Assembly (NCBI GenBank): GCA_019115615.1
Contig: DXDE01000125.1
Span: 1-35,352, forward strand
Origin: Candidatus Agathobaculum merdavium
GTDB lineage: Bacteria; Bacillota; Clostridia; Oscillospirales; Butyricicoccaceae
Reading direction: 5' to 3'
Length of the DNA: 35,352 nucleotides
A program made the translations under genes and the position numbers. The notes below the pieces were generated by a model that did no database searches, was not told where the DNA came from, and saw nothing but the letters and a program-made list of their open reading frames with translations. Shown piece after piece: positions 1-3,609 of this stretch (positions within the stretch are counted from its first letter, which is position 1; every line of letters begins with the position of its first letter).

Positions 1-774
1 GCAGACCCACCAAACCTTTTTGTGCGACCCTGCCGTGACCATCTGGGAAGTCAGGGAACTGTTCAGCGTTGGATGCCACTGTGCCGCGATTTCTGGCTGC
101 GTAGTAGCCAGATCATTGAACCCGGCCAGGACCTTTTTCCCTGCACAGTAAGGACAGCCCGATTCCCGAATGGTCCGCATCCCTACCTCAGCCATATACT
201 CGTGCCCAAGGGGGCAGATCCACCAGACACGCCGTTTGCATGCGGGGGTGACCTGGGACGGCAGCAGCGATCCATTTTTTGTGGGGTGCCACTCCTGCGC
301 CACCTCCGGAAACTGAGATGCCATGTCGTTCGCTCCCGGCATAATCACCCGTCCAGCGCAGACCGGGCATCCAGTCCCGTCCAATGTGCGGGACTGGACG
401 GAAACGCGCCACTCGTGACCCTTTTCACAGCGCCACCAGACTTTACGCTTGGTGCCAGAGGTCACTTCCCCGGGCGTCAGCGTGCCATTTTTCGTAGAGT
501 GCCACTGCTGAGCCAGTTCAGGAAACTGGCTTGCCAGATCATTGCTGCCGAGCGCCACCGCACGGTTTGCACACATCGGGCAACCGCAGCCATCTACACG
601 AGAGCGGATTTTCGCCTGCCATTCATGGCCCAGACTGCACCGCCACCACACCTTCTTCTCACTTCCAGGCAGTACATGTTCCGGAGTGAGCGGAAGATTG
701 GTGTCCTCTTCCCATTGATCCAGCAGCTCTTGCCGCCCTTCCCGTATGCAGAAATCATGCAGGCTTTCCCGCAT
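1..774 (-). CDS. Tandem zinc-ribbon repeat protein (DUF4379-like), 3' end cut by the window edge
   Basis: Reverse-strand frame open from ATG at 774 to base 1 (258 codons, no stop), absent from the ORF track. Translation MRESLHDFCIREGRQELLDQWEEDTNLPLTPEHVLPGSEKKVWWRCSLGHEWQAKIRSRVDGCGCPMCANRAVALGSNDLASQFPELAQQWHSTKNGTLTPGEVTSGTKRKVWWRCEKGHEWRVSVQSRTLDGTGCPVCAGR... with repeated (K/R)VWWxC-x2-GHE(W/Y)...GCPxCA units. RBS AGAAGGGGG lies just upstream. Confidence 0.88.
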   Translation of the reverse strand, partial: MRESLHDFCIREGRQELLDQWEEDTNLPLTPEHVLPGSEKKVWWRCSLGHEWQAKIRSRVDGCGCPMCANRAVALGSNDLASQFPELAQQWHSTKNGTLTPGEVTSGTKRKVWWRCEKGHEWRVSVQSRTLDGTGCPVCAGRVIMPGANDMASQFPEVAQEWHPTKNGSLLPSQVTPACKRRVWWICPLGHEYMAEVGMRTIRESGCPYCAGKKVLAGFNDLATTQPEIAAQWHPTLNSSLTSQMVTAGSHKKVWWVC

Positions 775-788
775 GGGCAGTCCCCCTT

Positions 789-814
789 CTATGCAGAATC
801 GACATTCTGCATAG
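789..814. repeat. Near-perfect palindrome at the left inverted-repeat site
   Basis: CTATGCAGAAT-CGAC-ATTCTGCATAG: 11-bp arms around a 4-bp centre, or 10-bp arms around a 6-bp spacer. Confidence 0.9.
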
Positions 815-852
815 AACCGGCCCTTTCCTTCCAATCAAATGGGAAAAATGGG

Positions 853-889
853 AAAAAAATCGCCCATCTTTCTTGCGGAAAGAGGGCGA
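853..889 (-). terminator. Intrinsic terminator on the minus strand between the recombinase and the DUF4379-like gene
   Basis: Minus strand reads TCGCCC-TCTTTC-CGCAA-GAAAGA-T-GGGCGA-TTTTTTT. Confidence 0.8.
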
Positions 890-905
890 AAGGGCGCGGA
901 AAGCC

Positions 906-944
906 AGACCGCATATGCAAATTATGCCTGCGGTCTATGTTTTT
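906..944 (+). terminator. Possible weak terminator hairpin on the plus strand
   Basis: AGACCGCA...TGCGGTCT (8-bp stem) followed by ATGTTTTT. Confidence 0.4.
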
Positions 945-967
945 GCGCTCAAAATCTGAAAGATATC

Positions 968-996
968 TTGTCTTTCATGTCCACACCTGCTATAAT
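968..996 (+). promoter_or_regulatory. Sigma-70-type promoter with extended -10, pointing right
   Basis: TTGTCT (968-973), 17-bp spacer, TATAAT (991-996), preceded by TGC (extended -10). Confidence 0.7.
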
Positions 997-1052
997 GTCG
1001 GTGTATTATTTCAATATGTAGCCGATTTTGAGACGGAATGTCGATTCTGTGA

Positions 1053-1898
1053 CTACAACACAAGTCCCAGTCGGTCAATCTCCCGTTGGTGCTCTGTGCC
1101 TGAAGTAATCAGGTAGATGCGTGTGGTTTCGATGCTGCTGTGGCCTAGCAGGTCGGCCAGTTTTGCGATATCCCGGCAGGCATGATAGAAGACTGTGGCA
1201 AACAGGTGCCGCAGGTTATGTGGGAATACTTTTCCCGGTTCCACACCTGCGTACTTGCACAGCCCTTTCAGTTCTGCCCATATCTGTCGACGGCCAAGTT
1301 CCTTTCCGCTTTTGGTGCGAAAAATCGTGCCGGAAGCGGTTTTTTGTTTTTTAGCGTACCTCAGCAGCTTGCGACGCAGCTTTTCGGGAAGCAGGATGGT
1401 GCGGATCTTGCCTTTAAGCGCAATCACTGCTTTGCCATGCTGAGCAGCTTCCACGGTGATATACGGTACTTCGCTGACCCGGATGCCGGTCGCTCCAATG
1501 GTCTCCACCAGAAGTCCCAGTCGTTCCCGCCCCAATTTGCGCGCCGTGTTCAAAAGCCTCTGATAGTCTTCCTTCGTCAGTTCACGGTCGGCATCCCGAA
1601 ACAGGCAGCGCTGAATCTTGAGGAACTTTACCCGGCACTCCCGCAGGTCAAGGAACTCCAGCAGGCTGTTCAGGGCAGAGAGCATAGCATTGACTGTCGT
1701 CGGGGCATAGTTCTGCGCTATAAGATGCCCTTTCCACTCCGAAGTCAGCTCTTTTCTGATCGCACGACCGTCAAGCCAGCGGGCAAATGCCCGGATATCC
1801 CGAAGATATTTCTCCATGGTGGCACGGCTCTTCTCCTCCATCTGAAGATGATGGGCGTATGCTTGGATTTGTTGTTGTGTTAATTGATGATTCTTCAT
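1053..1898 (-). CDS. Tyrosine recombinase / site-specific integrase (XerC/D-like)
   Basis: 281 aa with N-terminal SAM-like region. Catalytic motifs present: GATGIRVSE (Arg I), HNLRH (HxxR), LLGHSS, TRIYL (Tyr). Confidence 0.93.
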   Translation of the reverse strand: MKNHQLTQQQIQAYAHHLQMEEKSRATMEKYLRDIRAFARWLDGRAIRKELTSEWKGHLIAQNYAPTTVNAMLSALNSLLEFLDLRECRVKFLKIQRCLFRDADRELTKEDYQRLLNTARKLGRERLGLLVETIGATGIRVSEVPYITVEAAQHGKAVIALKGKIRTILLPEKLRRKLLRYAKKQKTASGTIFRTKSGKELGRRQIWAELKGLCKYAGVEPGKVFPHNLRHLFATVFYHACRDIAKLADLLGHSSIETTRIYLITSGTEHQREIDRLGLVL

Positions 1899-1951
1899 AG
1901 AGACCCTCCTATCAGAACTATATCGCTATTGTACAGGAAGCGCGAGAACAG

Positions 1952-1987
1952 CAACGCCCACAAAGTCAAATACTGCTGTGGGCGTTG
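1952..1987. repeat. Inverted repeat / hairpin upstream of the recombinase
   Basis: CAACGCCCACA ... TGTGGGCGTTG, perfect 11-bp arms with a 14-nt loop. Confidence 0.75.
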
Positions 1988-2181
1988 TGCGCCGTATTGA
2001 TAGATTTGCCACTAACATAGAAAAGATATACGCTTATCAGATCCTTTCCTCTTCAAAACAATTCCGTTCGTATACCAGTTCCCACGCAAACTTGGCCCCA
2101 AAGGAAACTGTCCCCGGAGCACTTCTCTGTTATCTGCCAAATAAAATTCGAGGAAGTCAGTCCGAGAAAGCGTGTAATATA

Positions 2182-2217
2182 AAATCAGGGCCTGTGGTAC
2201 TCCACAGGCCCTGATTT
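2182..2217. terminator. Strong bidirectional terminator-like hairpin
   Basis: AAATCAGGGCCTGTGG-TACT-CCACAGGCCCTGATTT, perfect 16-bp stem with A/T-rich ends. Confidence 0.7.
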
Positions 2218-2234
2218 CTCCCATACACGGCGTC

Positions 2235-2271
2235 AAGCCCCATAGGTACATTGTGTGCACCTATGGGGCTT
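2235..2271. repeat. Hairpin downstream of the aminotransferase gene
   Basis: AAGCCCCATAGGT-acattgtgtgc-ACCTATGGGGCTT, perfect 13-bp stem. Confidence 0.7.
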
Positions 2272-2311
2272 ACCCCTTATCACGTCTTTTTCTACTGCCA
2301 TACGACGCATT

Positions 2312-3511
2312 TTATGCGTTCTTGATAAACTCCTCCAGCCGGTCAAGACCCTTGTCGATCTCCGCCAGCGAAGTCGCGTAGCTCCAGCGGACAAAGCCCG
2401 GTGCGGCAAATGCGGTGCATGGTACGGTCGCGACCAGTCCCTTCTCGAGGAACAGCTGCGCGAAATCCTCCGCGCTCTCGATCGTTTTGCCATACATCTG
2501 CTTGCCGAGGAAGTTCTTCATGTTCATCATAACATAGAACGCACCCTGCGGCTTGATGCAGGAAACGCCCTCAATGCGGTTCATGCGCTCGACCAGATGG
2601 TCGCGGCGGGCTTCAAACGCCTTTTTCATGACCTGCATATCTTCCTGCGGGCCCTTGAGCGCCACGATCGCCGCATACTGCGAAATGGTCGACGGCGCGG
2701 AGGTCGAGTGGCTCAGGTAGTTGCTCATCACCTTGGCAAGTTCCGGGTTGGAAGCGCTGTAACCGATACGCCAGCCGGTCATGGCGTAGCTCTTGGAGAC
2801 GCCATTGACGATGATCGTGCGGTTCTTGACATCCTCGCTGAGCGAAGCGAAGGAAACGAACTCAATATCGTCATACACCAGATTGCAGTAGATCTCGTCC
2901 GCAATGACATAGATGTTATGGCGGCAGCAGACCTCTGCGATCGCCTCCAGTTCCTTACGGGTGTAGACCATACCGGTCGGGTTGCAGGGCGAGTTGAGCA
3001 TGAACGCCTTGGTCTTGTCGGTGATCGCGGCTTCGAGCTGTGCGGCCGTGATCTTGAAGTCCTGCTCCTCTTCGGCGGTGACAATCACCGGTACTGCGCC
3101 CGCCTGCTGCACCATTTCCGAATAGCTGACCCAGTATGGCGCCGCAATGACGACCTCATCGCCGGGGTTGCACAGCGTCATCAGCGCAATATAGACCGAG
3201 TGCTTCGCGCCGGACGCGACCACGATCTGCTTCGGCTCATATTCCAGGCCGAAATCGGTTTTCAGGCGGTAGCACGCAGCCTCACGCAGCTGCATCAGGC
3301 CGGCAGCCGGTGTGTAGCGGGTCTGGTTGTTCTCGATCGCCTCAATGCCTGCCTGCTTGATATGCTCGGGGGTCGGGAAGTCCGGTTCGCCCGCGCCAAA
3401 GCCGACAACATCCTTGCCCTCCGCCTTCATCTGCTTGAACAGCGAGTCGATGACCAACGTTGTCGATGCCTGCACCCCTGCTGCAATCCTCGAAATCGGT
3501 TTCAATGCCAC
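2312..3511 (-). CDS. Pyridoxal phosphate-dependent aminotransferase (aspartate aminotransferase type)
   Basis: 399 aa with GAGEPDFPTPEHI, NSPCNPTGMVY, ADEIY, and SKSYAMTGWRIGY (PLP lysine). Confidence 0.93.
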   Translation of the reverse strand: MALKPISRIAAGVQASTTLVIDSLFKQMKAEGKDVVGFGAGEPDFPTPEHIKQAGIEAIENNQTRYTPAAGLMQLREAACYRLKTDFGLEYEPKQIVVASGAKHSVYIALMTLCNPGDEVVIAAPYWVSYSEMVQQAGAVPVIVTAEEEQDFKITAAQLEAAITDKTKAFMLNSPCNPTGMVYTRKELEAIAEVCCRHNIYVIADEIYCNLVYDDIEFVSFASLSEDVKNRTIIVNGVSKSYAMTGWRIGYSASNPELAKVMSNYLSHSTSAPSTISQYAAIVALKGPQEDMQVMKKAFEARRDHLVERMNRIEGVSCIKPQGAFYVMMNMKNFLGKQMYGKTIESAEDFAQLFLEKGLVATVPCTAFAAPGFVRWSYATSLAEIDKGLDRLEEFIKNA

Positions 3512-3545
3512 GCTAAAGCACTCCTTTTCGTCTCTCTATGATTTT

Positions 3546-3574
3546 ATTATATGCCTGCCGCCGTTTTTTTGCAA
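3546..3574 (-). promoter_or_regulatory. Promoter upstream of the aminotransferase gene
   Basis: Minus strand TTGCAA, 17-bp spacer, TATAAT. Confidence 0.6.
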
Positions 3575-3609
3575 GTCTGCGTCTGCAAAACTGCAAAACG
3601 CAGGAATAG

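Follow-up and report, generated by a model that had tools for sequence, protein, structure and literature searches.

The start of the window (the whole analysed stretch of Candidatus Agathobaculum merdavium DNA, 35,352 nucleotides; GCA_019115615.1, DXDE01000125.1, positions 1 to 35,352) carries a short segment bracketed by inverted repeats, with a tyrosine recombinase gene on one side and the 5′ part of a zinc-finger protein gene on the other. Is this segment a genetic switch, and what does it control? Our reading, to which we assign a probability of about 90%, is that the locus is a self-contained phase-variation cassette (inverton), assembled in its OFF orientation, that would make a surface structure bistable.

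The segment is delimited by CAGAATCGACATTC at 794–807 and its exact reverse complement at 1036–1049, which leaves 228 bp between them, as the original prediction had it. The 14-bp repeat has no further exact copies in the 2.24-Mb assembly, and a single-mismatch copy is present once elsewhere. We estimate the chance of a perfect 14-bp inverted repeat in 1.6 kb at about 0.005, a figure far outweighed by the comparative evidence described below. The sequence and a site-pair scan place the repeats within two palindromic recombination sites of a 7-4-7 design: a cargo-side site, GCAGAAT-CGAC-ATTCTGC (793–810), and a recombinase-side site, ACAGAAT-CGAC-ATTCCGT (1033–1050, read in the recombinase direction). 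The two arms have the same asymmetric 4-bp crossover centre, CGAC, and form the only site pair found in this genome. Tyrosine recombinases invert segments that lie between inverted sites, and they require matching crossover regions.

The recombinase gene (1053–1898, minus strand) has its stop codon 3 bp from the right arm and encodes a complete XerC/D-type tyrosine recombinase of 281 aa (PF00589, E 1.7e-23), which also matches the SAM-like N-domain family PF02899. Its reading frame is intact, with the full catalytic set in place (R140, H227-R230, H253 and Y262, as motif positions), and its solved relatives in alignments are XerA and XerD. Against the NCBIfam XerC/XerD and XerA equivalogs it scores at best 143 bits, below the curated cut-off of 220 for these housekeeping classes. 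This enzyme presumably acts on the 793–810/1033–1050 pair. Its Pfam family is that of phage integrases, so the repeats could instead be the attachment sites of an integrative element, with the recombinase as its integrase. This is very improbable: the sites are inverted, not direct, and the roughly 228 bp between them contain no convincing gene; IMG/VR viral contigs yielded no relative, and the best match in a phage collection is 46% identical; moreover, the segment occurs in both orientations between fixed flanks (the window compared with locus L116, see below). The neighbouring genes sampled in the window (aminotransferase, thiamin pyrophosphokinase, PASTA kinase, RlmN-like, PriA, Dfp-like) are housekeeping genes, and for this reason the locus looks chromosomal rather than phage-derived.

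Inside the segment, a promoter scan locates a sigma-70 promoter on the plus strand (968–996, TTGTCT-N17-TATAAT with TG before the −10 element), and none of 40 shuffled segments scores as high. The promoter is probably active. It faces away from the cargo (OFF), and its −10 element ends 36 bp from the site that it faces. On the minus strand, a hairpin (860–889) with a T-tract (850–859) resembles an intrinsic terminator (850–889, −17.4 kcal/mol, z −4.29) and is expected to block read-through from the recombinase gene into the cargo in the OFF orientation. Both elements had been proposed in the original prediction, which overlooked a larger central hairpin (892–950). This hairpin is terminator-like whichever strand is read (−31.9 and −24.5 kcal/mol), and relatives have a similar layout, GCGCAAAA..GCCGCA..TGCGGC..TTTTGCGC. 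The probable ribosome-binding site of the zinc-finger gene, AGAAGGGGGA (781–790, minus strand), lies outside the repeat. Around the cargo-side arm there is a perfect 13-bp palindrome (787–816; fold −26.8 kcal/mol, z −4.2), predicted to form a strong hairpin abutting the ribosome-binding site in OFF read-through RNA and to be broken by inversion; it may be a second lock on the cargo. A similar near-palindrome is kept in the OFF relatives L114 and L033 (L004) and is absent from L116, which is ON. An Rfam search of window positions 1–3600 gave no match. Another terminator-like hairpin (1306–1347, plus strand) lies antisense to the recombinase gene, in line with the OFF-state promoter; it may limit an antisense RNA or be a coincidence, and it stands outside the main claim.

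Short repeats, and regional sigma-70 scans that gave 2 matches with 1.2 expected, would also fit a chance hairpin beside a promoter-like sequence, with no function at all. The comparative data refute this. The recombinase was used as a query against 99 relatives, giving dozens of strong homologues, and a scan of named genomes added records at 51–91% identity, mostly from Oscillospiraceae. Isolates with relatives include Flavonifractor sp. AGMB03687 (a near relative), Pusillibacter faecalis MM59 and Anaerotignum lactatifermentans An390. When about 72 loci were scanned uniformly, a site pair was found at 68; one of these (L063) was left out as a spurious GC hairpin, so that paired sites lie 3′ of 67 of the roughly 72 recombinases tested. 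All have the architecture of the window, namely two inverted 7-4-7 palindromes, mostly 225–300 bp apart, with a promoter between them. Examples of the sites are ACAGAAT-CAAC-ATTCTGT, ACAAAAT-CAAC-ATTTTGT, ACATAAT-CCGC-ATTATGT and ACATTAT-TGAT-ATAATGT. The 4-bp centre is identical between the two arms in every one of the 67 loci, even though 34 different centres are in use, all but one of them non-palindromic. The 54 distinct arm pairs contain 56 left–right mismatches, none of which falls in the centre (p ~8e-7 for mismatches spread uniformly over 18 positions). Identical, non-palindromic centres in both arms are what strand exchange by a tyrosine recombinase requires. The pairing criterion itself is loose (27 of 289 control regions reach at least 14 of 18 positions), so single weak loci prove little, and the weight lies on the whole set, on centre identity, on position and on the promoter. 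In the 67 loci, the best promoter in the segment has a −10 element whose median distance to the site ahead of it is 48 bp, whether the locus is ON or OFF, and this promoter reaches p ≤ 0.05 against shuffled segments in 54. Within the window's own clade, the offset is 36–37 bp for most loci in the OFF state and 39 bp for L116, which is ON. Conservation of the site pair, of centre identity and of promoter offset in 67 loci speaks against chance.

Some cassettes depart from the simple plan. Five (L037, L043, L056, L127 and L021) have three sites, the extra one being a second, directly oriented copy next to the recombinase side, which in L037 and L056 lies within a tandem duplication of about 50–60 bp; third sites could permit deletion or alternative inversions, or could be an assembly effect. 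In L036 and L117, the first gene behind the inverton is a second tyrosine recombinase-like gene, followed in L117 by a secreted-protein gene, and the pair is possibly a two-recombinase (FimB/FimE-like) arrangement.

The orientation of the segment varies among relatives. By a simple consensus score, on which all orientation calls rest, 48 of the 67 loci are OFF, with the promoter directed at the recombinase, and 18 are ON, with it directed at the cargo; at least 14 changes of orientation map onto a recombinase tree (a quick tree with many weak branches). The nearest inverted relative is L116 (CALWYG010000110.1), whose recombinase is 81% identical to that of the window. Aligned in inverted orientation, its segment has 151 of 232 positions identical to the window's (score 114.5); the direct alignment scores −8.5, and the best of 300 shuffles −7.0. 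On both sides of the segment, at the recombinase end as well as in the cargo-side flank ATTCTGCATA-AAAGGG, L116 matches the window in direct orientation. The segments of L114, L115, L126, L033 and L034 match the window directly and have the same orientation. Within a single genome of an order-level relative (G094), the paralogue L083 is inverted with respect to L082, L084 and L085. The original prediction of a recombinase-adjacent invertible promoter, caught in its OFF state, is thus strongly supported by the paired sites, the inverted homologue and the mixed orientation across 67 loci; the related recombinase with an oppositely oriented segment, which it proposed to look for, exists in L116 at the level of a homologue.

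The window locus itself has been seen in a single orientation, in its own assembly, and the outer bases of its arms differ (ACAGAAT..ATTCCGT against GCAGAAT..ATTCTGC). Both facts would suit a real cassette that is locked or decayed in this strain, where it would no longer invert. We regard such a loss as quite unlikely, given that the recombinase reading frame and its catalytic residues are intact, the two centres are identical, and the promoter and ribosome-binding site are preserved; similarly divergent arms are found in relatives of either orientation. As far as can be judged from sequence, an inverton that still flips in the window's strain is the likelier reading.

For a functional inverton, the mechanism would be as follows. 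The recombinase (1053–1898) would bind the inverted 7-4-7 sites at 793–810 and 1033–1050, and strand exchange around the CGAC centre would invert the segment of about 225 bp. In the OFF state, the promoter (968–996) would face the 3′ end of the recombinase gene, and the two terminator-like hairpins would insulate the cargo. Inversion to ON would set the promoter about 36 bp inside the cargo-side site, directed toward the minus-strand operon led by the zinc-finger gene, with the ribosome-binding site intact. By analogy with the closest relatives, the switched operon would run on into the gene for a small conserved protein, which we call SDL, and that for a giant anchored surface protein. The surface structure would be bistable, with the zinc-finger protein and SDL as accessory leader proteins.

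What the cassette switches can be read in the window only in part. The minus-strand reading frame that begins at 774, described in the original prediction as DUF4379-like, is a genuine DUF4379 (treble-clef zinc finger repeat) gene with four DUF4379 stretches (PF14311, E 1.4e-71). Its start codon is at 772–774, and it is cut at position 1 (1–774), full-length relatives being 300–380 aa long. Base 1 of the window is also base 1 of contig C4, in an assembly that is fragmented (2.24 Mb in 212 contigs, 86% complete); since the contig starts inside the DUF4379 gene, the genes downstream of it at this locus are unseen. In the same genome, PF14311 matches are confined to contig C4, and no match to SDL, sortase or Cna_B was found. 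The surface protein of L114 finds matches there in its C-terminal SLH region only, and the continuation of the operon was not found.

The relatives show what follows. At 11 inverton loci, the window among them, DUF4379 is the first gene; in most cases SDL, a sortase and/or a giant secreted protein come after it, encoded in the same direction. G044 (84%) has, one after another, the recombinase, the inverton, DUF4379 (378 aa), the small protein (92 aa, its gene overlapping that of DUF4379 by 4 bp), a sortase (PF04203) and a Cna_B protein of 3492 aa with VPTGD, a membrane span and a basic tail at its end. L114 (89%) has DUF4379, the small protein and then a 1221-aa SLH protein. In G097 and G036, DUF4379 precedes secreted proteins of 3680 and 3574 aa with SLH-like C-terminal repeats (SLH being confirmed by Pfam for the G097 protein), and L126 encodes the small protein together with a Cna_B protein of 1060 aa and a sortase. 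Cargo domains in relatives comprise Cna_B, SLH, LRR_5 and sortase; a signal peptide and a cell-wall anchor on the cargo are seen in relatives, the window's own cargo being cut at the contig end. Behind other cassettes lie genes for pilin-like proteins, for c-di-GMP enzymes (L116) or, directly, for large secreted proteins. A related recombinase (60%) in Pusillibacter faecalis MM59 also has a site pair and is annotated beside an SLH-domain protein.

Because DUF4379 usually leads operons for giant anchored proteins in those relatives whose downstream region is readable, the switch most likely controls a surface structure, with the zinc-finger protein as an accessory gene, and by the same analogy the window's operon probably continues off the contig. 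The original prediction had set an uncharacterized zinc-ribbon cargo against a known surface structure; this opposition does not hold in relatives, where DUF4379 usually leads into a giant SLH- or sortase-anchored protein, and probably arises from the point at which the contig happens to end. The same switch could instead have the DUF4379 protein itself as its key output, for instance as a stand-alone regulator or defence protein: the gene lies directly behind the switch, the window shows none further downstream, and in other genomes DUF4379 is also found apart from invertons. We consider this unlikely in view of the genes that mostly follow DUF4379 in relatives and of the many sister cassettes that drive a large secreted protein without any DUF4379. 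In L133, L140 and L141, furthermore, DUF4379 lies directly upstream of large secreted-protein genes, and neither a site pair nor an adjacent recombinase was found there, so DUF4379 is linked to surface proteins in part independently of the switch. L140 and L141 also have a divergent MerR-like gene upstream of DUF4379.

Related cassettes carry further kinds of cargo. The L116 operon, which lacks DUF4379, was considered as a set of exopolysaccharide genes, and this was rejected when Pfam gave EAL/GGDEF and VTC proteins. G094 has about 20 recombinase homologues, of which the dozen checked carry an inverton (L079, L081–L089, L091 and L102), and in nearly all of these a type IV prepilin-like gene (GFTLVEL) comes next. 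The arrangement, with two loci ON and the others OFF, looks like a multi-locus phase-variable pilin repertoire. In L051, the second gene of the switched operon encodes an HU-family DNA-binding protein (PF00216), 513–855 bp past the right arm. In L068 and L074, the gene behind the cassette is helicase-like (motif HPTGTGKS) and may serve in phase-variable defence or have some other intracellular function.

The unexplained part of the cassette is its leader genes. DUF4379 is modelled with high confidence (pLDDT 89) as repeated small zinc-finger-like units, and among solved structures its significant relatives are confined to trypanosomatid mitoribosomal proteins and assembly factors, which suggests a role with RNA or the ribosome. 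SDL, named for its invariant S-D-L, stands behind 15 invertons, with some decayed copies. It is confidently modelled as five helices (pLDDT 84) and gave no Pfam match above cut-off and no significant match to the PDB, whether by sequence or by fold. We tentatively suggest, at odds clearly below even, that DUF4379 and SDL are dedicated leader factors of phase-variable giant surface-protein operons, either RNA-acting processivity/antitermination or translation factors or ON-state recombination-directionality factors that feed back on the switch. If true, either role would add a new regulatory layer to invertons. The scant literature that names DUF4379 contains, by titles and abstracts, nothing on switches.

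Invertons, adjacent tyrosine recombinases and surface cargo are already well known. What appears to be new is a widespread recombinase-plus-inverton cassette family of Oscillospiraceae and neighbouring Clostridia, undescribed in the open-access literature searched. In that literature, no paper links phase variation and inversion to Oscillospiraceae, and the novelty of the family is provisional. The main text of the hCom2 inverton survey (PMC11892184) describes its Firmicutes_A groups 139 and 125 as clostridial invertons detected by reads, with group 139 enriched for a nearby tyrosine-type recombinase/integrase, and mentions neither zinc proteins nor Oscillospiraceae; the two groups could be the same kind of cassette. 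The site code (palindromic arms with a locus-specific 4-bp centre) makes such switches callable from assemblies alone. The family ties phase variation to the giant SLH- or sortase-anchored proteins of common gut bacteria, and it sets DUF4379 zinc-finger proteins, on which there is very little literature, in an operon context for the first time.

Several known systems resemble the cassette in part. The fim switch of E. coli (FimB/FimE) and the UpaE switch of UPEC (PMC6083910) likewise combine a short invertible promoter segment, inverted repeats, a nearby tyrosine recombinase and surface cargo. Unlike them, the cassette family has one XerC/D-like recombinase, its palindromic 7-4-7 sites have centres that are specific to the locus, a two-way terminator-like hairpin lies inside the segment, and the cargo is giant, anchored and of the Gram-positive type. 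The invertible capsule promoters of Bacteroides (PMC11892184) also precede a conserved leader gene, there the UpxY antiterminator, and a long surface operon; the leaders here, DUF4379 and SDL, give no antiterminator match by Pfam, and the recombinase and promoter type differ. The likeness to UpxY leader genes is a lead only. The RecV switches of C. difficile (cwpV and flagellar; PMC2784873, PMC5903667) share with the cassette a XerC/D-family recombinase, a clostridial host, short inverted repeats and surface cargo. RecV, compared here by description, serves several genomic loci, whereas one site pair was found in the genome of the window; cwpV is switched by a terminator with its promoter outside the segment, whereas the promoter of the window lies inside. 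In kind, the giant surface-protein cargo of the cassettes resembles CwpV.
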